A stretch of DNA of 39,864 nucleotides, taken from NCBI GenBank assembly GCA_024224155.1, contig JAAENP010000343.1:1-39864 (forward strand), written 5' to 3'. This DNA comes from a bacterium (GTDB lineage Bacteria > Acidobacteriota > Thermoanaerobaculia > Multivoradales > JAHEKO01). The position numbers and the translations under genes were made by a program. Of the stretch, positions 14,670-28,843 are shown piece after piece. How positions within the stretch are numbered: the first letter of the stretch is position 1; each line of letters starts with the position of its first letter. The notes under the pieces are model-generated. The model saw only the letters and a list, made by a program, of their open reading frames with translations, was not told the DNA's origin and did no database searches.

Positions 14670-15899
14670 ATGCACTCGACGGTCTCCCGCGAAAAAGTCT
14701 CATCTTCACCCTCTGCCCAGCGCTGGCGGATGCTGGTCCTGCTCTCGATCGCGGAGGTCCTCGGTATGTCGGCCTGGTTCTCGGCGAGCTCGATCTCGCC
14801 CCAACTTCAGTCTCTATGGCAGCTGAACCTGGGCCAGGTGGGCTGGTTGGTGGGCGCGGTGCAACTGGGCTTCGTCGCCGGTACGGCCGCTGCCGCGGTG
14901 CTCAATCTCGCGGATGTGGTTTCTTCGCGGTCCTACTTCGCCTCCTGTGCGCTGGGAAGCGCTCTGGTCAACGCCGGGCTCGTGGCGGCACCTGGGTACG
15001 CGACCGCTCTCGCACTGCGATTCCTTACCGGAGTTTTCCTGGCCGGCGTCTACCCGCCGGCGATGAAGATGATCGCGACCTGGTTTCGAGCCCGCCGCGG
15101 TCTTGCCATCGGGACGATCGTCGGAGCGCTGACCGTCGGCAAGGCGACACCGTATTTGATTCGGGCCCTCAATCCGGCTGACTTCAGAGTCGTGCTGCTG
15201 GCGACCTCGGTTGGAAGTCTCCTGGCGTCCGCCCTGGTTGCGCTCTTCTACCGCGAGGGACCGTTTCAATTCGAGCGCAGAGCCTTCGCCTGGGGGCTCA
15301 CCGGGACGGTGCTCCGTCACCGCCCCACCCGTCTGGCGACAGCCGGATACCTCGGACACATGTGGGAGCTCTACGCCATGTGGACATGGATACCGGCGTT
15401 CCTGGCCGCATCGCTCGCGGCCACCGAGACGAGTCCGCAAGAGTCATTCTGGCTCGGCAAGGACCTGCTCGCGTTTGGCGCGATCGCGGCCGGCGGACTC
15501 GGCTGCGTATGGGGCGGGTGGGAGGCCGACCGGCTGGGTCGGGAGCGACTGGTCAACCTGGCCATGGCGGCGAGCGGCACCGCGTCGATCGGAATCGGCC
15601 TGGTCTTCGGCGCCAGCCCTTGGCTCCTGGCGCTCGTAGCCTGGACCTGGGGGTTCTTCGTGGTCGCCGACTCGGCTCAGTTCAGCACCCTGGTGACCGA
15701 GGTCACCCCTCAACACGCAGTCGGAACGGCGCTGACCCTGCAAACGTCTCTTGGTTTCCTGCTCACCATGGCGACCATCCAGCTGGTTCCTCTCCTGGTG
15801 GACCTGGTGACCTGGCGTTGGGCGTTCGCGGTTCTCGCTCTGGGGCCCGCCGCCGGTATCGCTGCGATCCGCAGACTGGCGGTGCTCCGAGCTGGCTAG
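14670..15899 (+). CDS. MFS transporter
   Basis: A 409-residue major facilitator superfamily permease with about 12 hydrophobic helices. It has a cytoplasmic N-terminus, AEVLGMSAWFSASSISPQLQ in helix 1, and the helix 4-5 region LRFLTGVFLAGVYPPAMKMI followed by TWFRARRGLAIGTIVGALTV. That sequence resembles anion/nitrate- and cyanate-type MFS porters more than drug exporters. The substrate cannot be assigned. It ends on a CTAG stop shared with the convergent GH2 gene. Confidence 0.88.
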   Translation: MHSTVSREKVSSSPSAQRWRMLVLLSIAEVLGMSAWFSASSISPQLQSLWQLNLGQVGWLVGAVQLGFVAGTAAAAVLNLADVVSSRSYFASCALGSALVNAGLVAAPGYATALALRFLTGVFLAGVYPPAMKMIATWFRARRGLAIGTIVGALTVGKATPYLIRALNPADFRVVLLATSVGSLLASALVALFYREGPFQFERRAFAWGLTGTVLRHRPTRLATAGYLGHMWELYAMWTWIPAFLAASLAATETSPQESFWLGKDLLAFGAIAAGGLGCVWGGWEADRLGRERLVNLAMAASGTASIGIGLVFGASPWLLALVAWTWGFFVVADSAQFSTLVTEVTPQHAVGTALTLQTSLGFLLTMATIQLVPLLVDLVTWRWAFAVLALGPAAGIAAIRRLAVLRAG

Positions 15900-18568
15900 A
15901 GGCCGAGGCCTTGGGGATCGAATCTCAGCCAGACAACGTCGCGCCTCGAGGCTGTCTCATCTCGGGCGTCGGTTTCGGTGACCGGAGCGAGGTCGATCGA
16001 GCGGTGGAACTTGGTGCCCATCGCCGGAATTCGGCTGAGAAAGGAAATCGTTCCGAGGGCGGGCACCTCGGCTTTGGCATTCCGCGCGTCGCCCGGAAAG
16101 TCCGGCGCCAAGACGCCGACAAACAGCCCCTCACTCTCGACCGCGACCGTGACCGAACCTGCGAGAGTCCTGCCGTCCAACAGTCTCATCCAGCGCACCC
16201 CTGAATAGAACCCTCTCGCTGAGCGCCCCGGGGTGTCCTGATCGACCGACCGCCTCCAGAGGCCGGGTTGCGGACCGGCCAGGCGATTGGCCCATACCGG
16301 CCAGGGTCCGTCGCCGAGCCACTCGAGCCTAGAGGGCTCGAAGTCCGCCAGCCGGAGGGTGAAACCGGCGGCGTTCGGGTCCATGTTTCCGCCGCGCTCA
16401 ACCTCCAGCCTGATCCAGCCCGAAGCGTACTCCGTCCAGACGGTGGAGAAGTCTCCGGCTCCGATCGCACCTATCTGCTCAACCGATTCAATCCACCCAG
16501 GAGGAGCGCTTTCGGCTCCAGTGACCGCTCCCTCTTGGACAGGTAACCAGCTCTCGAGCAGGTCTGAGCGCCCTTCGTTCCAACCGGCCCACTCTCCTAT
16601 CTCCCGCCCATAAGGATCCAGCGCGACCAGACGTAGAACGTCGAACGCCCCGTCGGGTACGACTCCAAGGCTCACGCGGCCGCGCTGCCCGGGACCGAGC
16701 CTGGGGCCACGGCGTTCGAGCTCGAACAAGACGCGCGGCTCCGAGCCGGACACGGGATCGGGAACTGCGAGTCCTTGCCAGCGAAGCGTGCACTCCGAAA
16801 GATCGGTTCGAAAGAAGCGGTTCCGGACGTCGAGGAGACCGTTCTTCCAATCGGCGCTCTCGATCTCGATCGGCGACCAGATCTGCCGCACCGCCTGATA
16901 ACTCGCCTCTGGTTCTCGGTACGGCCCGACGATGCCATCCGGTGCGTAGTTGCCACGCGTGTCGATTGCCCCGGCACGGTCGGTACGAACCACTCCTTCG
17001 TCCAGAAGCGCCCAGAGAAAACCACCGGCCCCTCGCGGCGAGCTCGAGATGGCCCGCCAGTAGTCGGCCAGGCCGGAGCCACCGCCTCCGTCATAGAGCC
17101 CATGCAGCATTTCGGTCGGAAGCACGAGATCCGGCGCTCTCCCCAACCGAAGCAGGCGGCCGAGGCTCGAGTCGGACCCCAGGGTCTCGCGCAACTCAGC
17201 GTAGGTGGGATAGTGCCTGGCGTTGACACCAGCGGCCGTCGATCCCGGATGAATCACCGGTCGGCGCTGCGGATCGTGGCGTCCGAACTCGCCATCGAGA
17301 AGGCTGTTCCAGCCGCCCTCGTTGCCGTTGGCCCACAGAATCACCGAAGGGTGGTTGACGTCGCGGCGTACCAGTTCGCCGATCAGGCGGCTGCCGATAC
17401 CCGAGCGATAGGCATCGTGCCAGCCGGGAAGCTCGTCGACTACGTAGATGCCGAGCTCGTCGCAGGCCTCCAAGAACGACGAATCCGGTGGGTAGTGCGA
17501 TGTGCGCACTGCATTGGCGTTGAGGCCCTTGATCAGCTCGGCGTCCCGGCGGTTGAGACCGCGGTTCAGGGTGCGGCCCGATTCGGGCCAGAACGAGTGC
17601 CGGTTGACGCCCTTGAGCAACACGCGATGGCCGTTGACAAAGAGACCCTGGTCCGGCCGCAGCTCGATGGTTCTGAAGCCGAACTTCCACGCTTTCGGCC
17701 TGTGGAGCGCGTGTCCGTCCTCGCTGAGCCGGGCATCCAGAGAGTAGAGCCTTGGCCGCTCGCCGCTCCACGGTTCGACCCCTGGAATCCGCCCTCGAAT
17801 GGTGATCTGGTCCCGCCCGCCGTCTACCCGACTCGTCAAAACCGGCCCCACTTCGCTGGCTCTCGGGCCGATCTCACGCACCTGGACGGTTACCTCCTCG
17901 CCACCCTCGACCCCGGCGAGCTCTATCTCGACGGCCAACTCACCGTCGTGACGAGCGTCGATCGCCACATTGGAGATCGAACGGGCCGGAACCGACTCCA
18001 GGTAGACCGGCCGGTAGATACCTCCGAACACCCAGTAGTCCGCCTCGCGCTCGGCGCGATTGACCGAGTCGTCCGCCGATGCTTCGGACACTTCGACCTC
18101 CAGCAGGTTCGATCCCCCGTACTCGAGCCGATCGCTCACGTCATAGGCGAACCGGGTGAAGCCACCACGGTGGGGAGGGCCGGCTGATCTGCCGTTGACC
18201 TTCACCACGGCATCTGTCATCACGCCCTCGAACACGAGTCGAACGAGGCGTCCCCGCCAAGCCTTGGGAACTACGAACTCGTGGCGGTACCGACCGACTT
18301 CGGCGTGGAGCCTGGCCTCCGGATCGTCCTTGCCATAGGCATAGCTTCCCAAGCCTTCGAGCTCCCATTGCGACGGCACCGGAATCTCGATCCAGGATCC
18401 GGCGCCGCGGCCCCGATCGATCTGGAACTCCCAGTCGACGCCATCGCCAAGACCGGTTCCCGAGAGGTAGCGCCTTTCGGTGGAGGAGTCATCAATGAGG
18501 TTGCCGACGGCGGGACAGGCCAAGCCCAGCCCGACAAAAAGTAACCATACGGCTACAAATACTGGCAT
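15896..18568 (-). CDS. exported glycoside hydrolase family 2 (beta-galactosidase-like)
   Basis: An 890-residue GH2 enzyme. After an N-terminal hydrophobic leader ending LGLAC (signal peptide, possibly lipoprotein), a jelly-roll sugar-binding domain (WIEIPVPSQWELEGLGSYAY) and an Ig-like domain lead into the TIM barrel (LLKGVNRHSFWPESGRTLNR, NANAVRTSHYPPDSSFLEAC). The acid/base is probably E417 in ANGNEGG. The nucleophile is probably E486 in LPTEMLHG, where the family usually has an E-x-GH context. A C-terminal domain follows (16000-16600). GH2 includes beta-galactosidases, -glucuronidases and -mannosidases; specificity is not readable. No Shine-Dalgarno precedes the ATG. A CATATAAG box 12 bases upstream could give a nearly leaderless mRNA. 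Confidence 0.9.
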   Translation of the reverse strand: MPVFVAVWLLFVGLGLACPAVGNLIDDSSTERRYLSGTGLGDGVDWEFQIDRGRGAGSWIEIPVPSQWELEGLGSYAYGKDDPEARLHAEVGRYRHEFVVPKAWRGRLVRLVFEGVMTDAVVKVNGRSAGPPHRGGFTRFAYDVSDRLEYGGSNLLEVEVSEASADDSVNRAEREADYWVFGGIYRPVYLESVPARSISNVAIDARHDGELAVEIELAGVEGGEEVTVQVREIGPRASEVGPVLTSRVDGGRDQITIRGRIPGVEPWSGERPRLYSLDARLSEDGHALHRPKAWKFGFRTIELRPDQGLFVNGHRVLLKGVNRHSFWPESGRTLNRGLNRRDAELIKGLNANAVRTSHYPPDSSFLEACDELGIYVVDELPGWHDAYRSGIGSRLIGELVRRDVNHPSVILWANGNEGGWNSLLDGEFGRHDPQRRPVIHPGSTAAGVNARHYPTYAELRETLGSDSSLGRLLRLGRAPDLVLPTEMLHGLYDGGGGSGLADYWRAISSSPRGAGGFLWALLDEGVVRTDRAGAIDTRGNYAPDGIVGPYREPEASYQAVRQIWSPIEIESADWKNGLLDVRNRFFRTDLSECTLRWQGLAVPDPVSGSEPRVLFELERRGPRLGPGQRGRVSLGVVPDGAFDVLRLVALDPYGREIGEWAGWNEGRSDLLESWLPVQEGAVTGAESAPPGWIESVEQIGAIGAGDFSTVWTEYASGWIRLEVERGGNMDPNAAGFTLRLADFEPSRLEWLGDGPWPVWANRLAGPQPGLWRRSVDQDTPGRSARGFYSGVRWMRLLDGRTLAGSVTVAVESEGLFVGVLAPDFPGDARNAKAEVPALGTISFLSRIPAMGTKFHRSIDLAPVTETDARDETASRRDVVWLRFDPQGLGL

Positions 18569-18878
18569 CCGTGAATTGTGCTTATATGCTTACCCATAAG
18601 GCTTCTGCACAATGACAATAGCTAGACATCGGCCGTGGCAACTCTCAGGGACCGAGCACGGATCCCGACTCAGGCTGTGCTCTCGGACCGTCCTTGCGGT
18701 CAGCTCCCGACGCCTGCACGGCTCCCACTCTACCCGCAAACCCGGCTCGCACCCATTGCGCCCGCCGCGCCTACCTTACAGGGTGGTCCGGGATGCCAGC
18801 CTCAGGGCGGTGGCGCGATCATTCCAGCTAATGCCACGATGCAATCCGCGGTCATCGCATCATAAGGTGTTACAGACA
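18569..18878. other. 310-bp divergent intergenic region
   Basis: This lies between the GH2 gene (minus) and the 21-haem cytochrome gene (plus). It holds the GGGTAAGCATATAAG box near the GH2 start and AAGGTG 9 bases before the cytochrome ATG. The cytochrome frame is open back to an ATG at 18612, but that part reads as arginine/proline-rich noncoding sequence ahead of a clear signal peptide. I see no RNA gene. Confidence 0.5.
18581..18595 (-). promoter_or_regulatory. AT-rich box GGGTAAGCATATAAG, possible promoter
   Basis: On the minus strand this reads GGGTAAGCATATAAG, ending 12 bases before the GH2 start codon. A near copy, GAGTAACCATATA, lies upstream of the minus-strand 11-haem cytochrome gene (23891-23903). 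In this GC-rich DNA the shared box may be a -10-type element or a regulator site. Confidence 0.3.
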
Positions 18879-21845
18879 ATGCCAGCGCTTTCAGGCTTCC
18901 ATAGGACGATTCGATTCTCGGCAGCGCCGGTATTGGTTGCCGCGCTCCTTTGCGCAATTCTGCCCGTCTCAGCCACCCTCGCCCAGGACGCCGAGGAGTG
19001 CCTCTTCTGCCACGAAGACGCCGACATGACCGGGACCCGGGACGGTCAGGAGATCTCGGTCTATGTAGACCCCGAGGCGTACGCGGCCTCGATCCACGGC
19101 GACTGGGATTGCGTCTCATGCCATGTCGACCTCGAAGGCGCTGACATGCACGATGACGAGGTCGAGCCGGTGAGCTGCGGTGAGTGCCACGATGCCGAAG
19201 CCGCAGGCCTCGAAAAGAGTCGCCACGGCCGCTTCCGGGCGACCAACGAGCGCTGGGCGCCGAGCTGCGCCGACTGCCACGGTAGTCATGACATCCAGGC
19301 GGCCACCGTCGGAACGTTGAAATGTTCCAACTGTCATGCCACCGCGGTCGCACATCAGCGTCGCAGCCTGCACGGCGAGGCGGCCACTCGCGGCGATCAG
19401 TTCGCCCCGACCTGCACCGATTGCCACGGCGGCCACGACATCCTGCCGTCCTCCGATCCACGAGCCATGACCGCAGTGATGAACGTGCCGCTTCTGTGTG
19501 GTCGTTGCCACCAGGAGGGATCCGAGGTCACCATCAACCGCGAAATCTCGCAAGACAGCATCCTCGAGAACTACTCGATGAGTATCCACGGCGAGGGCCT
19601 GTATCGGCAAGGCCTCACCGTGACCGCCGTCTGTACCTCATGCCACACGGCCCACGACATCCTCCACCACGAAAACCCCGCTTCGAGTATCAACCGTGAC
19701 AACGTCGCCCGAACCTGCGCTGCCTGCCACGGTCAGATCGAGCAAGTGCACCGCAAGGTCATCGAAGGCCGGCTTTGGGAAGAAGAGCCGCACAAGATCC
19801 CGGCCTGCGTCGACTGCCATTCGCCGCACAGGATCCGGCAGGTCTTCTACCCCGCGGGCCTGGCAAACCAGGACTGTCTCACCTGTCATTCCGATCCGTC
19901 CCTGACCATGGAGCGCGACGCTCAGACGATCTCGCTCTTCGTCGACGAGGCCATTTACTTCGGCTCGGCGCACAACGACACCGCCTGTGCTCAATGCCAC
20001 ACCGACGTCACCCCGTCACTAACTCGCTCGTGCGAAACCGTCACCTCGAAGGTGGATTGCAGCATCTGCCACGCCGAGCCGGTGGCCGAGTACACGGGCG
20101 GGATCCACGGCTCTCTGATCGCTGAGGGTGACCCGGATGCCCCCACCTGCATCGACTGTCATGGCAAGCACGACATCCAGCTGAAGGAGGTGCCTTCATC
20201 GCCGACCTTTGCACGCAACGTTCCCGCGCTGTGCGCGAACTGTCATCGAGCCGGTGAGCAGGCGGCGGTGCGAATCGAGTCTGAGATCGAGGACATCTTC
20301 GACAGTTACCTGGACAGCATCCACGGCAAGGGGTTGGTCGAGAGCGGTCTCCTGGTAACCGCCACCTGCGCCGACTGCCATACAGCGCACGGCGAGCGGC
20401 CTCCCACCGACGAGCTGTCGTCGGTTCATCACGACAACATCGCGGCAACCTGCGGGGGCTGCCACCACGGCATCGAAGAGACCTTCAAAACCAGCATCCA
20501 CTACCCGGCGGAAGCCGACCCCGAGCATCGCTTTCCGAACTGCGAGGACTGTCACTCATCGCACACCATCAGTCGTACCGACCAGCAGGATTTCAGGTTC
20601 ACGATGATGAACCAATGCGGTCGCTGCCACGAAACCGAGGCCGAGACCTTCTTCGACACGTTTCACGGCAAGGTCTCCCGGCTCGGCTCGGCGGGCTCCG
20701 CCAAGTGCTACGACTGCCACGGTACTCACGACATTCTACCGGCCTCGAACCCTGCTTCGGCTCTGGGCCGGGATCGGGTCGTCGACACTTGTGGCAACTG
20801 CCACGAGGGCTCCCACAAGCGGTTTGCAGGCTATCTGACCCACGCCACCCACCACGATCCCGACAAGTACCCCTGGCTCTTCTGGACCTTCTGGGCCATG
20901 ACCACCCTCCTGGTCGGCACTCTGACCTTCGCCCTTCTGCACACGCTGGCCTGGCTGACCCGGCTGTGGTTGAACCGGGAGGAGTGGAAGAAGCACAAGC
21001 TCCTGGCAAAAGCCAACAGCAAAAAGCTCTACCGCCGCTTCAACCGCTTCAACCGGACCTTGCACGTGTTGATGCTGGTGAGCTTCTTTACCCTTGCGCT
21101 AACGGGCATGGCGCTCAAGTTCTCCTACATGGCCTGGGCTCAGGCCGTGTCCTGGCTACTCGGCGGCTTCCACACAATGGCGACCCTGCATCGGATCGGC
21201 GCCGTGTTTTTGGTGGCGATCTTCTTCGTCCACCTCTGGGACGTGTGGCGCAAGAAGAAGGCATCCGGAGAGACCTGGCTTCAGATGATCGCCGGCCCCA
21301 ACTCGATCCTGTTCAATAGACGCGACGTCAAGGAAGTAGTTCAGTCGATTCGCTGGTTCTTCGGCATGGGTTCACGCCCCCACTACGGTCGCTATACCTA
21401 TTGGGAGAAGTTTGACTACTTCGCGGTCTTCTGGGGCGTGCTCGTGATTGGCTCGACCGGGTTGATCCTGTGGTTTCCCGAAGTCTTCACTCACATTGTC
21501 CCGGGTTGGTTCGTCAATGTGGCCACCATCATCCACAGCGATGAAGCCCTGCTGGCGGTGGGATTTATCTTCACCATCCATTTCTTCAACACCCACTTCC
21601 GGCCTGACAAGTTCCCCATGGATCCGGTCATCTTCACCGGCCGGGTCACCCTGGACGAACTGCAGTACGACAAGCCCGGTGAGTACGAAGAACTGGTCAA
21701 GAGCGGGCAGCTCGAAGAGCACCTGGTCGATCCCGTCCCCAAGCCGGCCGAGAAGGCGATCCGGTTCTTCGCCTACACCGCGCTGGCGATCGGGCTCGTC
21801 CTGATCGCCCTGATCGTCTATTCGATGCTCTTCGGTTACCGCTGA
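18879..21845 (+). CDS. 21-haem cytochrome c fused to b-type cytochrome, CbcL-like
   Basis: A 988-residue exported and membrane-anchored electron-transfer protein. A signal peptide (AAPVLVAALLCAILPVSATLAQ) precedes 21 CxxCH haem-binding motifs between residues 41 and 642. About five membrane helices follow (665-988) with helix histidines (TLHVLMLVSFFTLALTGMAL; GFHTMATLHRIGAVFLV; TIIHSDEALLAVGFIFTIHF), a cytochrome b561/FdnI-like domain. This is the layout of CbcL of Geobacter, a quinol-oxidising inner-membrane cytochrome, which has far fewer c-haems. The haem region is an internal duplication: CLFCHEDADMTGTRDGQEIS at haem 1 matches CLTCHSDPSLTMERDAQTIS at haem 11. It would carry electrons from menaquinol to periplasmic or outer acceptors. 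The start is chosen by the signal peptide and AAGGTG. Confidence 0.92.
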   Translation: MPALSGFHRTIRFSAAPVLVAALLCAILPVSATLAQDAEECLFCHEDADMTGTRDGQEISVYVDPEAYAASIHGDWDCVSCHVDLEGADMHDDEVEPVSCGECHDAEAAGLEKSRHGRFRATNERWAPSCADCHGSHDIQAATVGTLKCSNCHATAVAHQRRSLHGEAATRGDQFAPTCTDCHGGHDILPSSDPRAMTAVMNVPLLCGRCHQEGSEVTINREISQDSILENYSMSIHGEGLYRQGLTVTAVCTSCHTAHDILHHENPASSINRDNVARTCAACHGQIEQVHRKVIEGRLWEEEPHKIPACVDCHSPHRIRQVFYPAGLANQDCLTCHSDPSLTMERDAQTISLFVDEAIYFGSAHNDTACAQCHTDVTPSLTRSCETVTSKVDCSICHAEPVAEYTGGIHGSLIAEGDPDAPTCIDCHGKHDIQLKEVPSSPTFARNVPALCANCHRAGEQAAVRIESEIEDIFDSYLDSIHGKGLVESGLLVTATCADCHTAHGERPPTDELSSVHHDNIAATCGGCHHGIEETFKTSIHYPAEADPEHRFPNCEDCHSSHTISRTDQQDFRFTMMNQCGRCHETEAETFFDTFHGKVSRLGSAGSAKCYDCHGTHDILPASNPASALGRDRVVDTCGNCHEGSHKRFAGYLTHATHHDPDKYPWLFWTFWAMTTLLVGTLTFALLHTLAWLTRLWLNREEWKKHKLLAKANSKKLYRRFNRFNRTLHVLMLVSFFTLALTGMALKFSYMAWAQAVSWLLGGFHTMATLHRIGAVFLVAIFFVHLWDVWRKKKASGETWLQMIAGPNSILFNRRDVKEVVQSIRWFFGMGSRPHYGRYTYWEKFDYFAVFWGVLVIGSTGLILWFPEVFTHIVPGWFVNVATIIHSDEALLAVGFIFTIHFFNTHFRPDKFPMDPVIFTGRVTLDELQYDKPGEYEELVKSGQLEEHLVDPVPKPAEKAIRFFAYTALAIGLVLIALIVYSMLFGYR

Positions 21846-21871: not shown

Positions 21872-23767
21872 CTAGCCCTCGCTCGTCGACTGCTTCTTGC
21901 GCGCGGGCACTCTGGCCGGCCTTCGGTGGCGAGTCGAGCGCCCATTCAACCAGGCGGTGTCCATGGGGTAGATCTCGGGATCGAAAATCACCGAGTAGAA
22001 GTGCCAGACCAGAATCGCGAGCGTGGCGAGAACGGCCTCGTAGAAGTGAATCACCGTCGACAGATCGGCTACCCAACTCGGCAGCCAACGCAGGGTCCAT
22101 TCCTCGAACCACAACAGAAAGCCGGTCGCCGCCATGATGACCGTGCCCCAGATCACCGCCAGGTACTCGGCCTTCTCGACGTAGCCGACCCATGGCTCCG
22201 GCGGCGGCACGGTCCGGCGTCCGGCCAGAAAAGAGACCTTCTCTTTGATCTCGACCCAGTCCGCCCGCCCGGGCCACATCTCGGCGATACACCGTCTCGC
22301 CCGTCTGTCCCTGAGGAGGTGGATGACATGCACGGCGCCCGCAGCCAGCATCACCACCGCCGCGACGCGGTGAATCCAGCCGCGGAATCCGAACAGCGAC
22401 AGCGACCACCAGGCCTCCGGGTACTTCAAGGCGAAACCGGTGTAGGCGAGAACAATGAAACTCAGCGCCAACAGAGCGTGAGCAAGGCGAAAGCCCTGCG
22501 ACATACGCTCCGGCGCGTCGGCCGATGCCGGCCCCATCCTTGGCTCGGGATGCCGGGCTTTTCGGTAGAGGTCGAGCAGGTTGTGCAGCAGCATGACACC
22601 GATCGTGACGAAGATCAGTGAAAGATAGGCTTTGCGCACCCAATACACCACCGCGTGCTCCCTCTTGGTGGGCAAAACGTGGACCGGACCGATGGCGAAC
22701 TGAGCGCCCGCACCGGGATGGCAGTGGCCGCAGGTCGCCGCCAGGTTGGCGGCATGAGTATGGGCCGCAGGATCCGACGAGGGCAGGATGTCGTGGACGC
22801 CATGGCACGAGGCACAATTGGCGACCGTGACCGAGCCGCCACGCGAAGCGAGGCCGTGAAAGCTGTCCGAATAGGCCGGCACCTTGTCCTCGGACATGCC
22901 GAACTTCGCCGACAGCCGGAGATCGCCGTGGCAGCGACCACAGGTAACCTTGGGCAGGTTGGTGGCAAAGACCGGGGACTCCTCGTTCGCCGGTCCCAGA
23001 ATGCGATGCTCACCGTGACAGTCGGTGCAGACCGGCGATTCTTGGATGCCGTGTCTGGCGGCCTTGCCGTGGACACTGGCCTCGTACACCGCGGTAATCT
23101 TCTCGTGGCATTGGCCGCAGGTCTCGGGCACTCGTTCGCGGTGGACCTTCGAGCTCACGTCGGCCGCCGGCAGGATGTCGTGGGCGCCGTGACAACTGCT
23201 GCAGTTGGCGCCGCCGTTGCCCTCGATCACGGCACCGGCGTGAACGCTCGCGGAATAAGCCGCCAATGGCTGCACCAGCCGGATGCCCAGCTCGCCTGCA
23301 AGATCGGCGTCGGCGTGGCAGGCACCACAGGTCTCGGCGATTCTGTGCAAGTGAATCGGCGACCCCGGATCGGTCTGCGAAACCAGCTCGTGGATCGCGC
23401 CGTGGCATACCTGGCAGCCACCACTCGGCCATTCTGCAGCTCCTCCCGCGCGGCCGTGGACACTGCTCTCGAGCACCATGGCCGTTTCGTCGTGGCAGTC
23501 GGCACAGCCCGGTGTCAGCCCACCGTCCATGTGCTCCTCCGACTCGGTGCCCGGATGGCAATCGATGCACTCGGCGAACTCGTGCACCGAGGCCGCCAGG
23601 GTCTCGGCCGGGTCGTCATGGCAGTCGAGACAACCGGCCTCCTGTCCCTGTACCGGCAAGGCCAGAGCCAAGAATCCGAGCAAAACAGTGGCCGCAGCTC
23701 CCTGGCAGGAAAGTTCTCGGGTCGACACGACTCGCTTACCTCCTCGAAGACCGGCCTCCGCCGGCAT
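21872..23767 (-). CDS. 11-haem cytochrome c fused to b-type cytochrome, CbcL-like
   Basis: A 631-residue smaller relative of the convergent 21-haem protein. A signal peptide (GAAATVLLGFLALALPVQGQ) is followed by 11 CxxCH motifs (residues 46-350), several in the family context CxxCHGxHDI. A b-type cytochrome membrane domain follows (about 365-600; LAHALLALSFIVLAYTGFAL, WIHRVAAVVMLAAGAVHVIH, TVIHFYEAVLATLAILVWHF). The C-terminus is arginine-rich. Quinol oxidation coupled to a c-haem wire is inferred from the CbcL-type layout. AAGGA 5 bases before the ATG at 23767 fixes this start; the frame is open to an ATG at 23905, but that would put 46 basic residues before the signal peptide. It ends 26 bases from the stop of its neighbour. 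Confidence 0.91.
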   Translation of the reverse strand: MPAEAGLRGGKRVVSTRELSCQGAAATVLLGFLALALPVQGQEAGCLDCHDDPAETLAASVHEFAECIDCHPGTESEEHMDGGLTPGCADCHDETAMVLESSVHGRAGGAAEWPSGGCQVCHGAIHELVSQTDPGSPIHLHRIAETCGACHADADLAGELGIRLVQPLAAYSASVHAGAVIEGNGGANCSSCHGAHDILPAADVSSKVHRERVPETCGQCHEKITAVYEASVHGKAARHGIQESPVCTDCHGEHRILGPANEESPVFATNLPKVTCGRCHGDLRLSAKFGMSEDKVPAYSDSFHGLASRGGSVTVANCASCHGVHDILPSSDPAAHTHAANLAATCGHCHPGAGAQFAIGPVHVLPTKREHAVVYWVRKAYLSLIFVTIGVMLLHNLLDLYRKARHPEPRMGPASADAPERMSQGFRLAHALLALSFIVLAYTGFALKYPEAWWSLSLFGFRGWIHRVAAVVMLAAGAVHVIHLLRDRRARRCIAEMWPGRADWVEIKEKVSFLAGRRTVPPPEPWVGYVEKAEYLAVIWGTVIMAATGFLLWFEEWTLRWLPSWVADLSTVIHFYEAVLATLAILVWHFYSVIFDPEIYPMDTAWLNGRSTRHRRPARVPARKKQSTSEG

Positions 23768-24056
23768 TCTGTCCTTCTTGCTGGGCGGCGCGCGCCGCCT
23801 CACAAGGCGGACCCAAATACCACCCCGCCGGACAGTGAACGTTCGAGCTCTCTGGAAGTGCCGCCGAGGCGAGTCGGTTCTATGCGTCTCTATATGGTTA
23901 CTCATTCTCCTTTCACAGCCTTCGACCAGGCACGGTATTCACGACTGTAGATCCATCGACTACACTCCCGGCGAGAGCCGCGCCTTTTCGGAAGAGGCAA
24001 CTCGTGGACCTGCCTTCCGTAGAAGGCTTGAGAGAAGAACCGAGGAGAACCGCCGC
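23768..24056. other. 289-bp divergent promoter region
   Basis: The region separates the 11-haem cytochrome gene (minus) from the methyltransferase gene (plus). It contains the box GAGTAACCATATA (minus strand, 23891-23903) and GAGGAG before the methyltransferase start. No small gene or RNA is evident. Confidence 0.4.
23891..23903 (-). promoter_or_regulatory. AT-rich box GAGTAACCATATA
   Basis: On the minus strand this lies about 125 bases upstream of the 11-haem cytochrome start. It matches the box at the GH2 promoter (GGGTAAGCATATA) at 11 of 13 positions. It could be a promoter -10 region or a shared regulator site. Confidence 0.3.
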
Positions 24057-24704
24057 ATGCCCCGACGACTCCAACGCCACCCCCGACCTTCGAACCGTTC
24101 GCTGGCGATCGCAATTGCCGGCCTGGCGCTTGTGGCGTGCAGCCTGCGGGGCGCCAGCATGGCCGAGATCGAGCGCATTGCGACGTTACTGCAGCTCGCG
24201 CCGGGGCACGTGCTCGCGGACGTCGGCGCCGGCGACGGCGATTTTTCCGAGAAGCTAGCCGCAAAGGTCGGGCCCGAAGGGCGGGTCTTTGCCACCGAGG
24301 TCAAGAAAGACCTGGTCAAGAAAATCGAGAAACGCATGAGCCGCAAAGGCCTTTCACAAATCGAGGCGGTCCTGGGCAACCAGGATGAAATCGGCTTGCC
24401 GCCGGACTGCTGCGACGCCGTTCTGCTGCGCCTCGTCTACCATCACTTCGTCAAGCCCGAGAGAATGCGCGCCGAGCTCTGGCAAGCCCTCAAACCGAAC
24501 GGGCTGATCGCCATCATAGACATCACGCCGCAGGAGCACTGGAGCAAGCTGCCCGGGGTGCCCGATCGTGGTGGCCATGGCATCCCCAAGGGCGACCTGG
24601 TCGCCGAAATGGTGGGCGCCGGATTCGAGTTCGTCGAGCAGCAAAACAACTGGAACAACCAAGAGGACCGATTCGCGGTTCTGTTCCGCAAGCCGAGAGC
24701 CTAG
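24057..24704 (+). CDS. class I SAM methyltransferase with lipoprotein-type leader
   Basis: A 215-residue protein. The C-terminal 180 residues form a Rossmann methyltransferase: motif I is LADVGAGDGDF (53-63), then VFATEVKKDLVKKIEKRM, and CDAVLLRLVYHHFVKPERMR, with LKPNGLIAIIDITPQEHW as the motif III region. Residues 1-28 (RRLQRHPRPSNRSLAIAIAG, then LALVAC) look like a lipoprotein signal peptide with Cys28 as the lipidated residue. That is odd for an enzyme needing cytoplasmic SAM. Similar exported predicted methyltransferases are common in environmental genomes and lack a known substrate. GAGGAG 9 bases upstream supports the start. It converges on GH105 with a shared CTAG stop. Confidence 0.85.
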   Translation: MPRRLQRHPRPSNRSLAIAIAGLALVACSLRGASMAEIERIATLLQLAPGHVLADVGAGDGDFSEKLAAKVGPEGRVFATEVKKDLVKKIEKRMSRKGLSQIEAVLGNQDEIGLPPDCCDAVLLRLVYHHFVKPERMRAELWQALKPNGLIAIIDITPQEHWSKLPGVPDRGGHGIPKGDLVAEMVGAGFEFVEQQNNWNNQEDRFAVLFRKPRA

Positions 24705-25816
24705 ATCGCATCGCCGGATTCTCGATCAGCCTCTTGCAGGGCGAGAACCTGCTCCGCAGCCAGTAGAAAGGCCCCGCTGGCGTAGACCTCGGAGTGCCGC
24801 CCGGAGACCCGGCCGGGCTTGGCGCCGGGCTTCTGGACCCAACCGAGGCGGCCCTCTCCATCGACGTTTCGGAAGAGTCCTTCCCAGGCCGCCGCGACCA
24901 CCGGCAGAAAGTCCTCGGGGTCGAGGATGCCCTGGTGAACCCCCCAGGCGAGAGCGAAACAGAAAAGCGCCGATGCGCTGCTCTCTCCGGGAGCCGACGA
25001 GCTCGAGCCCAGAAGATCCGAACGCCAGAGTCCGTCGTCGGCTTGAAGCTCCGCAATCCGCTCGGCAAGGTCGCGGAAGACCCGCCTGTAGAAGATCTCG
25101 CTTGAACGAGCTTGCCCCAATTCGTCTATCAGGCGGGCCAGACCCGCCAGAACCCAACCGTTACCTCGAGCCCAGAATCGAGGATCTCGCTCATCGCGGA
25201 ACCTGAGATCGCGATGGAACAACCGGTGCTTCTCGTCATAAAGAAGGTCGTACGCCTCGCGCCACAGCCGATCCATGAAATCGAGGTATCTGGCGTCACC
25301 GGTCGCTCGGGCAAGCTTGGCCAGAGCCGGAGGCGACATGAACAACGCGTCGCACCACCAGTAGTCGATCCGCTGATGCTCCTTGGTCCAGCTCGGCGGC
25401 TCGCTCATCATCCGATCGATCGCAATCTGAAACGGTCTGTATCGCTCAGCGCCGTTTTCGATCCGAATGAGCTCGAGATAGGTCTGGGCGATGGCGTGAT
25501 CGTCGGCGTGGCGGTGGCGCGCCCCGATCTGCCAACCGGCTCGTTCACCGACCGCGATCATCGCCTCGAGGTACTTCGAGTCGCCCGTAAGGCGGTAGGC
25601 CGCCATGACGCCGGAGTAGAAAACGGCGTTGGTCCAGTCTTTGGGATCGTATTCGGGGTGATCGAGCTGCCAGTCGGCCACCCTGGCCGCCACGGCTCGG
25701 ATCTGCGCCGGCTCCAGTGGATCGACCTCGGCCTCCGATACCGCCCGGGGCTCAGCGGCGCAGCCTCCGACCGACAGCCAAAAGGCCATGACGAACACGG
25801 TAAGGATTCGCTGCAT
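24701..25816 (-). CDS. GH88/GH105 unsaturated uronyl hydrolase
   Basis: A 371-residue alpha/alpha-barrel glycosidase of the GH88/GH105 group (YteR/YesR-like). These enzymes remove the 4,5-unsaturated uronic acid left at chain ends by polysaccharide lyases. Visible family features are WTNAVFYSGVMAAYRLTGDS, HADDHAIAQTYLEL, and YWWCDALFMSPPALAKLARA with the probable catalytic Asp156. WARGNGWVLAGLARLIDEL is also conserved. The leader LTVFVMAFWLSVGGC ends in a lipobox-like Cys, so it is probably a lipoprotein. An ATG at 25855 would also fit, only 6 bases after the stop of the lyase-barrel gene. Either way it is the second gene of a minus-strand pair with that fusion. Confidence 0.9.
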   Translation of the reverse strand: MQRILTVFVMAFWLSVGGCAAEPRAVSEAEVDPLEPAQIRAVAARVADWQLDHPEYDPKDWTNAVFYSGVMAAYRLTGDSKYLEAMIAVGERAGWQIGARHRHADDHAIAQTYLELIRIENGAERYRPFQIAIDRMMSEPPSWTKEHQRIDYWWCDALFMSPPALAKLARATGDARYLDFMDRLWREAYDLLYDEKHRLFHRDLRFRDERDPRFWARGNGWVLAGLARLIDELGQARSSEIFYRRVFRDLAERIAELQADDGLWRSDLLGSSSSAPGESSASALFCFALAWGVHQGILDPEDFLPVVAAAWEGLFRNVDGEGRLGWVQKPGAKPGRVSGRHSEVYASGAFLLAAEQVLALQEADRESGDAI

Positions 25817-25861
25817 CGGAGCACCGTCTCGCGCTACCATCTCGCCATTCGCCACCGACAG

Positions 25862-28843
25862 CTACAGCGTTTCTTTGGTGGTTACCAGGTACTGGATGCT
25901 CTCGATCGAGCCGCCGGCGTCGAGCGGAAACGCCACGTCCAAATGAACGACGGTCTTGCCGCTCGAGCGGGTCGGGCTCATGCGCAGGCCGAATCCCACA
26001 TCCCTCAGCACGCCGAGATCGTCTTCGCTATCGGAGCCCGCAAACCAGGCCGTGCCGATGTCCAGAAACACTGCCGCCCCGAGAGTGGCGAGCTTGAACA
26101 CCTCCCTCTTCGAGTAGTAACGCTGCTCCAGCGTCAGGAGCAAACGGCGATCGCCGCTCTGGAAGCGAAGCGGGTAGCCACGCAGACCGCTGTCACCTCC
26201 GATCAGGAGCTGCTGTTCCGCGTCCAGGTTCTCAACCGCCGCGGCCTGAAACTCGGCGTAGAAGATGTGTCTACCCAGGTTTCTGCGATAGAAGCGGACC
26301 GTTCCGCTAAGTGCAGCATTCGCAAAGCCTTCTTTCGACCACCGAGTGCCGCCGGTGCTGTCGATGAAGAGCAGCCTTCCGGGACCCAGGTGGAATCCGC
26401 TCGAAGCGTCGAATCCCACCAGCGCCTCGTCACGGTCACCACCGAATGCGGGCGAAGACCAGCCCGCCCGGGCGCTGATCACCGTACCGAGGTTGACGTC
26501 CTCGATACGAGCGATCTTGTCAAGATCTGCCGCTTCGATGAACCGGTCTTCGACCCAGTCAAAGCCGATCCAAGGATAGGAGATCGTGCGGTCGGGGGGG
26601 AGATCCGTTGGAGGCGGTCGGTCCGCGAGCTGGGTGAAGCGATCGCGCAGGAACGTAAAGCCGAGACTCAAGCGCCGAGCCACACCGTCGTGAAGTCCTC
26701 GAGAGAACCCCCAGAACGCAGTCAGCTGATCGATCTCGTGCCGGAACTCAGTCGCGACCTCGCCGCGCTCGAAGAGCGGATCGATCCGCTCTTCCGTCAG
26801 AAGCGTAATGCCCTTGGATCGCCGCGAATCGAGAGCGAAGAACGGACGCTTCAGCTTGAGAAAGCGGCGGTAGCCATCGGAGTTCTCCTCCAGTAACACC
26901 TCGGCTTCGGCCCGCGTCCCGAAGAGATTGAAGTCCCGGAATTGAAACTCGTTCCTAGTGCGTTCGACATCGGACTCGCGGCTGACGCCCAACTCCTTTC
27001 CGGTGCCCAAGAAGTTCGTGTCCTCGATGTGAAACCGTGTGCTGTTCTCGCCTCCGCTCCTTGAATACGAAGCGCCGCCGGTCAGGGTCCACACGTCGCG
27101 AGTTCTCACCACAACGTCGACCTCGCCACCGATCTCCTCGCTCTTGCGCCGATACGCGGTGGGCCGGATTTCCGCCTCGTACAGGTAGCCCTTGCTGCGC
27201 AGCAGGCGCTCGGACTCCTCGAGTAGCCGATGCGAATACGGATCGCCGCTCTTGAAGAGAAGCTCTTTTCGAATCACGTTCTCCGCCGTCTTGCGTCGAT
27301 AGCGGTTCACCATTCGAAACAGCTTCCGATTCTCGGTCGGGTCGCTCTCGTCGAAGACATTGCCGACCTCCACCGAGATCGCGCCGATCCGCACGTTACT
27401 GGCCTCCAGAAAGCCCTTCGGCGGAACCACGTGGTCGCTTGACGCAGACTCCGCCGTACCCGCTTCCCCTTCTTGCGCTTTCCTGTAGACGCGCAGCCGG
27501 CTGGGCTCCGGATGGGGCGGGTCACGTGGCCGATCACGATTGACCGGTAAGGTCTCCCACCGAAGGAAGTACTCGCCGCGGCGATCGTGGATGAACTCGC
27601 GCACCTCCATGCCGGGAACCGGGGATTCCGGCTCATTCAGAAGTCGGAGACCGTCAGGGATCGGCAGCGTTACAACCGGCGTCAGCGTATCCTCGTCCAA
27701 GACCCAGATGCCGGCTCCCTGCTCGACATGCCGAAACTCCTGGGTCAGGTTGCCGTGCTCGTCGATCGTCGGGGGCCTCACGACGGTCGCTTCTTGCAGC
27801 GTTCCGGTCCTCGCTAAGTCCCAGCGATAGGTCCAGTCGCTGGCCCTGGCTACCTCCCAACCGTTGCCTGCCCAGCGGCTGTTGTAGGCCTGGCTCTTGC
27901 CGGCGGCGTCGTACTTCGAGTAGGTGACGATTGGCCGGTGCCGAGCGTCCCAACCTACGCCGAACGCGACGCCGGCCAGCCCGCCACCCGATCGGACCGG
28001 GTCGACCAGAGCCTCTTCGACCCCGGGCCGTATCGGCAAATCGAGACGCTTGCCGGAGGCGGTCTCCCAGTGGATCAGATCCCGGCTGCGGGCGTACGAG
28101 AGATCGTGATTGGTTGCCCCATCGGGGCTTTCGCGCCACAGCCAGACCAGATGGAAGTAGCCGTCGGGTCCCTTCACCGGACCGACGGAATAGGCGCTCT
28201 CGGATTCCTCGCCGTCCAGCAGCGGCTCGGACAGGTGGCGACGCCAGCGCCTCGAGTCGACATCGTATGCGTTCAGAATCTGCGTGCCGTTGCCGCTCTT
28301 GCCGTCCCGATACTGAAAGTAGAGCTCGTCCTCGGCGCCATGAATGAAGCGTGGGTAGCTCACCCGTTTCTCGAGCTCCCCGACCATGCCCGGCGTCTCG
28401 AACGACGAGATGTCATGCGCTGCCGTGGACCGGAAATACACCAGCCTGTCACCGTGCATGTTGCCGCTGACGTGGATGAAACCTGCCAGGTCTACCGCCA
28501 TGGCGAGGTAGTTGTGGGAGTCCCAACCGACGACCGAAGGCAGGCGTTGAAAGCTCCAGTCGGCCGAGTCCAGCGATCGCTGCGCCACCGTCATCCGGCG
28601 CTGGGGGTCGTAGAAAGCGACGTACTGCCACCGCCCGGCTGTCTCGAGAGCGAAATGTACCGGGTGACCCGACCAGACCGGCGCCACATCGACGCTCTCC
28701 AACCCCGCGGGCTCGGCTTCGGCCGCGACCGGAACCTGCAGCCGTAGGATCCAAATCAGCGCGATCGCTACTGCCTTCGAGCTTCCGCTGCCTACGCGGG
28801 TGATTCCAGTCAAAGTACAGATCTCCCGAACGGCCGAGAGCAT
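25862..28843 (-). CDS. BNR_4 polysaccharide-lyase-like propeller fused to POTRA and Omp85 barrel
   Basis: About 993 residues in one open frame. A signal peptide (AVAIALIWILRLQVPVAAEA) is followed by a BNR_4 beta-propeller (about 46-456) with YVAFYDPQRRMTVAQRSL, DSHNYLAMAVDLAGFIHVSG, and YPRF...YRDGKSGNG. Candidate catalytic residues are H110, H130, Y163 and R179. Their spacing (20 and 16 apart) agrees with the His/His/Tyr/Arg set I recall for PL24/PL25 ulvan lyases. A POTRA domain (484-586; NVFDESDPTENRKLFRMVNR) leads into an Omp85-type barrel (586-993), with the L6-loop motif GGDSGLRGYP. This suggests a lyase tethered to an outer-membrane barrel. ATG 28945 would overlap the divergent gene; a TTG at 28813 with GGGAG 9 bases before it is an equally good start. 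Confidence 0.85.
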   Translation of the reverse strand: MLSAVREICTLTGITRVGSGSSKAVAIALIWILRLQVPVAAEAEPAGLESVDVAPVWSGHPVHFALETAGRWQYVAFYDPQRRMTVAQRSLDSADWSFQRLPSVVGWDSHNYLAMAVDLAGFIHVSGNMHGDRLVYFRSTAAHDISSFETPGMVGELEKRVSYPRFIHGAEDELYFQYRDGKSGNGTQILNAYDVDSRRWRRHLSEPLLDGEESESAYSVGPVKGPDGYFHLVWLWRESPDGATNHDLSYARSRDLIHWETASGKRLDLPIRPGVEEALVDPVRSGGGLAGVAFGVGWDARHRPIVTYSKYDAAGKSQAYNSRWAGNGWEVARASDWTYRWDLARTGTLQEATVVRPPTIDEHGNLTQEFRHVEQGAGIWVLDEDTLTPVVTLPIPDGLRLLNEPESPVPGMEVREFIHDRRGEYFLRWETLPVNRDRPRDPPHPEPSRLRVYRKAQEGEAGTAESASSDHVVPPKGFLEASNVRIGAISVEVGNVFDESDPTENRKLFRMVNRYRRKTAENVIRKELLFKSGDPYSHRLLEESERLLRSKGYLYEAEIRPTAYRRKSEEIGGEVDVVVRTRDVWTLTGGASYSRSGGENSTRFHIEDTNFLGTGKELGVSRESDVERTRNEFQFRDFNLFGTRAEAEVLLEENSDGYRRFLKLKRPFFALDSRRSKGITLLTEERIDPLFERGEVATEFRHEIDQLTAFWGFSRGLHDGVARRLSLGFTFLRDRFTQLADRPPPTDLPPDRTISYPWIGFDWVEDRFIEAADLDKIARIEDVNLGTVISARAGWSSPAFGGDRDEALVGFDASSGFHLGPGRLLFIDSTGGTRWSKEGFANAALSGTVRFYRRNLGRHIFYAEFQAAAVENLDAEQQLLIGGDSGLRGYPLRFQSGDRRLLLTLEQRYYSKREVFKLATLGAAVFLDIGTAWFAGSDSEDDLGVLRDVGFGLRMSPTRSSGKTVVHLDVAFPLDAGGSIESIQYLVTTKETL

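Follow-up and report, generated by a model that had tools for sequence, protein, structure and literature searches.

A lyase-type BNR_4 propeller on a single-POTRA Omp85-type barrel in one family of Acidobacteriota

Introduction

Enzyme-bearing Omp85 proteins have received very little study, and patatin proteins are the basis of the debate over type Vd secretion. A stretch of 39,864 nucleotides from an acidobacterial contig (JAAENP010000343.1 of assembly GCA_024224155.1, hereafter the window) raises the question of whether an enzyme of another kind can be carried in the same way, as a single reverse-strand gene seems to join a propeller of the BNR_4 type to an outer-membrane barrel. The original prediction, made from the sequence alone, read this protein as a surface lyase that is displayed or secreted by its own barrel. 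Here, we consider whether the joined frame is real, what each half is, and on which side of the outer membrane the propeller would act.

A continuous gene in four genomes

The gene at 25862..28843 (-) encodes 993 aa counted from its ATG, contains no internal stop, and comprises in order a signal peptide, a BNR_4 propeller, a linker, a POTRA domain, and an Omp85-type barrel. Direct reading of the translation predicts a Sec-type signal peptide at about residues 1-43 (28715..28843, -), with the hydrophobic core AVAIALIWILRLQVPVAA and a 15-residue hydropathy maximum of 2.04. The linker (residues 455-484; 27392..27481, -) is hydrophilic and fast-evolving, coincides with the predicted junction near 27463, and measures 30-60 aa across four fusions. 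These fusions occur in the window's own genome (G000) and in G001, G002, and G004, all from one acidobacterial family, with three genomes belonging to one genus and one to another; the other three proteins share 75, 65, and 54% identity with the window protein. The frame that had been read as continuous from propeller to barrel is indeed so, being free of internal stops and the same in all four genomes.

A more prosaic explanation is that a frameshift, a missed stop, or a chimeric contig has united two adjacent genes, as the contig belongs to a 576-contig draft and a fifth genome, G009, carries propeller and barrel as two separate, overlapping genes in exactly matching order. However, the identical frame recurs in four genomes, and the hydrophobic signal sequence with which the G009 barrel gene begins is gone from all of the fused proteins, in which the hydropathy maximum of the linker is -0.23 to 0.86, compared with 2.03 in the split gene. 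When codons are compared with those of the window protein, at dS of about 1 or more, dN/dS is 0.17-0.24 for the propeller, 0.09-0.23 for the POTRA domain, and 0.10-0.25 for the barrel; the linker, at 0.24-1.26 over few codons, is less constrained than these domains. Because both halves are under purifying selection while the linker drifts, an error of frame or assembly is rejected; together with the continuity in four genomes, this rules out the artefact for practical purposes, and we give it only a minute residual probability.

The fused propeller ends where complete free-standing relatives end, so two whole domains have been joined. BNR_4 is present in 5 of the 149 genomes of the class, which are precisely the four fusion genomes and G009, and many genomes across the order encode the barrel half on its own, at about 550 aa. 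In G009, the stop codon of the propeller gene overlaps a possible start of the barrel gene (TTGA). The simplest history is that the propeller was acquired within the family, set beside a resident Omp85-type gene, and later fused with this neighbor, in which case G009 would have retained or regained two genes; the trees do not separate an older two-gene state in G009 from a fusion that was split again.

A search for further fusions, as suggested with the original prediction, yielded the three others described above, and no additional BNR_4-Omp85 fusion was seen among 396 genomes of the phylum (17 with BNR_4). The survey draws the fusion from one family of genomes, with each phylum sampled to a maximum of 400 genomes. 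A coarser look at 394 genomes from the phylum of L033, a 1474-aa candidate in which neither Pfam nor reading shows a barrel, also revealed none. A long frame from that phylum (genome G752) proved to be GH2 plus BNR_4 instead, in a single 1055-aa protein (L088, 3638-6805, +). In the plasmid collection, no record covered 80% of the query, and among the matches listed the propeller or the barrel occurred alone. Barrel relatives were not found in viral contigs. IMG/VR contigs classed as viral (L091-L096) do encode proteins of 641-931 aa with BNR_4 and conserved lyase-type His, Tyr, and Arg; these are phage-tail-like by reading and are possibly phage depolymerases.

Long frames on the same barrel branch in G036, G018, G033, and G026 were also considered as carriers of other passengers, and by reading they look like upstream read-through, each having a signal peptide or hydrophobic stretch immediately before the POTRA domain. 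A same-branch barrel in G006 (L038, 895-2433, +) is missing most of its POTRA domain, has a short DUF218/YdcF-like stretch in frame ahead of it, and lies near a transposase-like ORF, a context that reads as that of a rearranged or misassembled copy.

The propeller and its predicted active site

That the N-terminal half is a BNR_4 propeller is confirmed by a full-length match to PF15892 (residues 72-337 on profile positions 1-272; E 3.4e-78, 263 bits against a cut-off of 27.3). Pfam, sequence search, and fold search together define a seven-bladed, PL42/GH145-like propeller at residues 46-456 (27476..28708, -), and the structural model used spans these residues and is confident only for about residues 63-335. 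By phmmer, the nearest solved proteins are those of the Bacteroides GH145 group (E 3.8e-41 to 2.9e-37), followed by the PL42 lyase FoRham1 (7e-12), and GH145 is due for renaming to PL42 according to the FoRham1 study (PMC8377490). Sequence matches to PL24 are marginal (Uly1, 0.0024; LOR_107-type, 0.04 or worse), and PL25 structures gave no match to the propeller at E 1 by sequence, with a weak pairwise match at 0.10. The fold search places PL42/GH145 at Z 27-29, PL25 at 25.6, and PL24 at 21-22, with lectins next at 16. The relation to PL24 and PL25 proposed at the outset therefore holds for fold and superfamily, but the nearest characterized family is PL42/GH145, not PL25.

PL42 (formerly GH145; FoRham1, BT3686, BACINT_00347, BACCELL_00856) is thus the closest family in sequence (E 4e-41 to 7e-12) as well as in fold, although its characterized members are only about 20-30% identical to the fusion propeller and lack an Omp85 part. 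The PL25 and PL24 ulvan lyases (PLSV_3936, LOR_107, Uly1) share the propeller fold (Z 21-26) and a related His/Tyr/Arg chemistry, whereas they have no barrel and match the fusion very weakly or not at all by sequence.

Alignment to FoRham1 and 13 relatives predicts a lyase active site within 28133..28516 (-), in which His85, His105, Tyr150, Arg166, Ser170, Tyr202, and Arg220 of FoRham1 correspond to H110, H130, Y163, R179, S183, Y218, and R237. In FoRham1, His85 serves as base and acid with His105 as its partner, and Arg166 is the neutralizer; the equivalents of these residues line a single active site in the FoRham1 crystal structure (PMC8377490). All seven anterior residues, shared with PL42/GH145, are kept in the 14 proteins compared, save H130 in two, and in every fusion. 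The His/His/Tyr/Arg candidates of the original prediction are found among them, conserved as H110, H130, Y163, and R179. Their supposed PL25 spacing is matched in part: the His-His distance of 20 and the Tyr-Arg distance of 16 equal those of both PL25 and FoRham1, but H130 and Y163 are 33 residues apart rather than 45.

BT3686, the nearest characterized relative, is a reported hydrolase, and Bacteroides members have been described as lacking lyase activity (PMC8377490). The posterior catalytic His48 of BT3686 is, however, absent from the fusion propeller, where A69 takes its place (T, I, S, and V in the other fusions and G009), and this position varies freely among propeller relatives. The rhamnose-binding Asn275-Gln276 pair of FoRham1 is missing as well, with no NQ at the LINQT position in relatives; for this reason, specificity for Rha-GlcA is not claimed. 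Because the anterior residues are kept, the posterior His is absent, and a GH88/GH105-type gene comes next in three genomes, the propeller is judged to be a likely uronate lyase.

The POTRA domain and the barrel

A POTRA domain at residues 518-578 (27110..27292, -; PF07244, E 2.3e-6) aligns with the last POTRA of BamA and stands directly before an Omp85-type outer-membrane beta-barrel of about residues 601-993 (25865..27043, -), which is recognized by profile matches and by free-standing homologues. The NCBIfam BamA model matches residues 518-649 (E 1.3e-13), and the Omp85_fam model gives a weak match to residues 860-972. A profile built from 24 homologues of the C-terminal half finds solved BamA at 1.6e-8, over the POTRA domain and the start of the barrel, and the POTRA-domain protein 9ccg at 2.9e-13, at the barrel end. 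The motif GGDSGLRGYP (26171..26200, -) of the conserved Omp85 loop, in which LRGYP starts at residue 887, is invariant as GGD.GLRGYP among the 24 homologues. The predicted POTRA domain and Omp85-type barrel with this motif are supported by PF07244, the NCBIfam BamA model, and the homologue profile. Profiling the C-terminal half separately gave a divided outcome, in that the POTRA domain and BamA model matched but Pfam PF01103 (Omp85) had no match to the barrel at E 0.01; because of the latter, we regard the barrel as a divergent branch. No description of this single-POTRA branch, which is distinct from patatin-Omp85, was found in the literature searched. AlphaFold prediction of the full chain from a 4-sequence alignment gave a pLDDT of 38, most likely as a result of the shallow alignment depth.

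Many genomes in the L033 phylum encode distant homologues of the barrel half (about 26%) as free-standing proteins. On a plasmid of Pseudoalteromonas xiamenensis, another distant homologue (27-29%; L081, 5848-7506, +) is encoded immediately downstream of the gene for a phosphoethanolamine-lipid A transferase.

Neighboring genes and loci of relatives

The next gene (24701..25855, -) encodes an unsaturated-uronyl hydrolase of the GH88/GH105 type (PF07470, E 1.7e-65) with a lipoprotein-like N terminus by reading, and its best solved relative is 4CE7, an unsaturated 3S-rhamnoglycuronyl hydrolase (E 3.6e-67). This gene adjoins the fusion in the window, in G001, where the two overlap start to stop by 4 bases, and in G002, where they are 26 bases apart; it is not adjacent to the fusion in G004 or to the split pair in G009. 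Taken more widely, the window does not form a polysaccharide locus and contains an ABC transporter, a flavin reductase, multihaem cytochromes, and a GH2 gene several kb off. The GH2 glycosidase (15896-18568, -) lies about 6 kb past the GH88/GH105 gene, and a GH2 gene is also near the fusion in G001. Two large ORFs (18612-21845, +, and 21872-23905, -) each combine multihaem cytochrome c7/c3 repeats with a cytochrome b561-type membrane part.

The propeller also has free-standing relatives at 36-50% identity, which form an uncharacterized BNR_4 subfamily (Alteromonas 76-1 ALT761_RS20465, Asticcacaulis, Catenovulum, Bacteroidota G843) that shares the same propeller to near its last motif but has no POTRA domain or barrel, and its genes are often near GH88 or lyase genes. 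On the ulvan plasmid of Alteromonas 76-1, the relative is near GH88, a PL25-type BNR-4 gene, and sulfatases; in Asticcacaulis, it is near GH88 and kduI; and in two Bacteroidota, the relatives are near PL8 and heparinase-type lyases.

Proposed function and alternatives

PlpD, long regarded as a self-secreting type Vd protein, has been shown by protease and crosslinking experiments to hold its patatin domain in the periplasm, against its POTRA domain, and its authors judge the export of a folded domain to be highly unfavorable (PMC11116518). Because PlpD has the same layout and retains its passenger, a periplasmic tether is the reading that we favor here, with PlpD serving as a precedent with a different passenger and not as proof of a periplasmic propeller. 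We put at about an even chance the full proposal that the protein is a uronate lyase fixed to the outer membrane on its periplasmic side, using PL42-like chemistry and feeding the GH88/GH105 neighbor; its lyase chemistry, its location, and its joint action with the neighbor are all drawn by analogy from homologues. The Sec signal would direct the protein to the periplasm, the C-terminal single-POTRA barrel would insert in the outer membrane, and the propeller would fold on the periplasmic side, held by the flexible linker and the POTRA domain as in PlpD. If the anterior face works as in the PL42 enzyme FoRham1, R179 and Y218 would hold the carboxylate of a 4-linked glucuronate-type sugar while H110, aided by H130 and Y163, abstracts the proton at C5. 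Elimination of the 4-linked group would then yield a 4,5-unsaturated uronate. The GH88/GH105-type lipoprotein from the next gene could then take off this unsaturated uronate.

In the type Vd idea as first conceived, by contrast, the barrel would export the N-terminal propeller and polysaccharide would be cut outside the cell. The order of signal peptide, N-terminal enzyme, POTRA, and barrel matches the arrangement formerly proposed for type Vd secretion (PMC4104836), linkers of 30-60 residues could span a barrel, and a lyase acting on intact polymer would be most useful extracellularly. However, the POTRA domain sits between the linker and the barrel, G009 makes the propeller from a gene of its own, and the behavior of PlpD argues against the export of a folded domain. 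Display or secretion of the lyase by its own barrel, as originally predicted, is therefore unsupported, there being no sign of export in the sequence, and we consider it unlikely, as we do the broader claim that the lyase either passes outward through the Omp85-type barrel of its own chain or acts on glycan entering through that barrel. Two further readings, both improbable in our estimation, concern the propeller itself. At the non-reducing ends of oligosaccharides, it might eliminate water or a small substituent, in the manner of a dehydratase, leaving unsaturated uronate for the GH88/GH105 neighbor without cutting polymer; an unsaturated end would suffice for this neighbor, the natural substrates would be periplasmic oligosaccharides, and for P29_PDnc of ulvan degradation a PL-type mechanism eliminating water has been proposed (PMC8511951). 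The tested residues of that enzyme (D248, E254, E255, D269, D290, R300, K303, and Y306; PMC8511951) nonetheless differ from the His/Tyr/Arg set of the propeller, and a BNR_4 dehydratase was not found in the literature searched. Alternatively, the propeller might be non-catalytic, resembling BamB or TolB or binding glycan, and might aid barrel assembly or envelope sensing. BamB is a propeller partner of BamA, and the surroundings of the fusion are not a full carbohydrate locus. WD40-Omp85 with a TolB-like propeller is, moreover, a known subfamily (PMC4104836), and one is encoded in the window's genome. Such a role accords poorly with the complete lyase active-site set in every fusion, with propeller relatives in catabolic loci, and with a uronyl hydrolase as the next gene.

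If the lyase reading is correct, a polysaccharide-lyase-type enzyme would be held at the outer membrane by its own barrel, and the literature searched yielded no description of such an arrangement. If self-export or the cutting of incoming glycan were true instead, the type Vd layout would gain a new class of passenger, and the fusion would retain a lyase at the outer membrane of a bacterium that has no polysaccharide locus around it. A second, unrelated enzyme in this layout, together with its two-gene relative, offers an independent test of whether passengers of this kind remain periplasmic, and a simple absorbance assay suffices to monitor lyase activity.

Comparison with known Omp85 proteins

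Domain-bearing Omp85 proteins are already known as a kind, and what is new is the pairing of a single-POTRA Omp85 scaffold with a lyase-type domain related to PL42. The available part of the survey by Heinz and Lithgow describes ten Omp85/TpsB subfamilies, including patatin-, WD40-, and metallo-domain forms, and a BNR_4 form is not found among them there (PMC4104836). A search of mostly open-access papers likewise returned nothing relevant on BNR_4 or a polysaccharide lyase joined to Omp85. The patatin-Omp85 proteins of type Vd (PlpD, FplA) share the layout of signal peptide, N-terminal enzyme, one POTRA, and Omp85 barrel, but their enzyme differs in fold and chemistry, the fusion having BNR_4 and no patatin domain. 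WD40-Omp85 and Metallo-Omp85 also combine an Omp85 barrel with a non-POTRA N-terminal domain, which in one case is a propeller; these domains are not BNR_4, whereas the fusion propeller retains the active site of an enzyme and precedes a POTRA domain.

The window's own genome also encodes a patatin-POTRA-Omp85 protein of 778 aa (L100, 284-2620, +; contig C156) and a WD40-Omp85 protein of 1004 aa (L098, 2229-5243, -; contig C431), so that domain-bearing Omp85 proteins recur in this lineage. Finally, a 2103-aa chain from the same genome (L097, 723-7034, +; contig C387) has an AsmA/TamB-like N-terminal part followed by POTRA and an Omp85 barrel, and appears to be TamB and TamA fused in one chain; at least seven further genomes in the family contain matching open frames of 2008-2621 aa.
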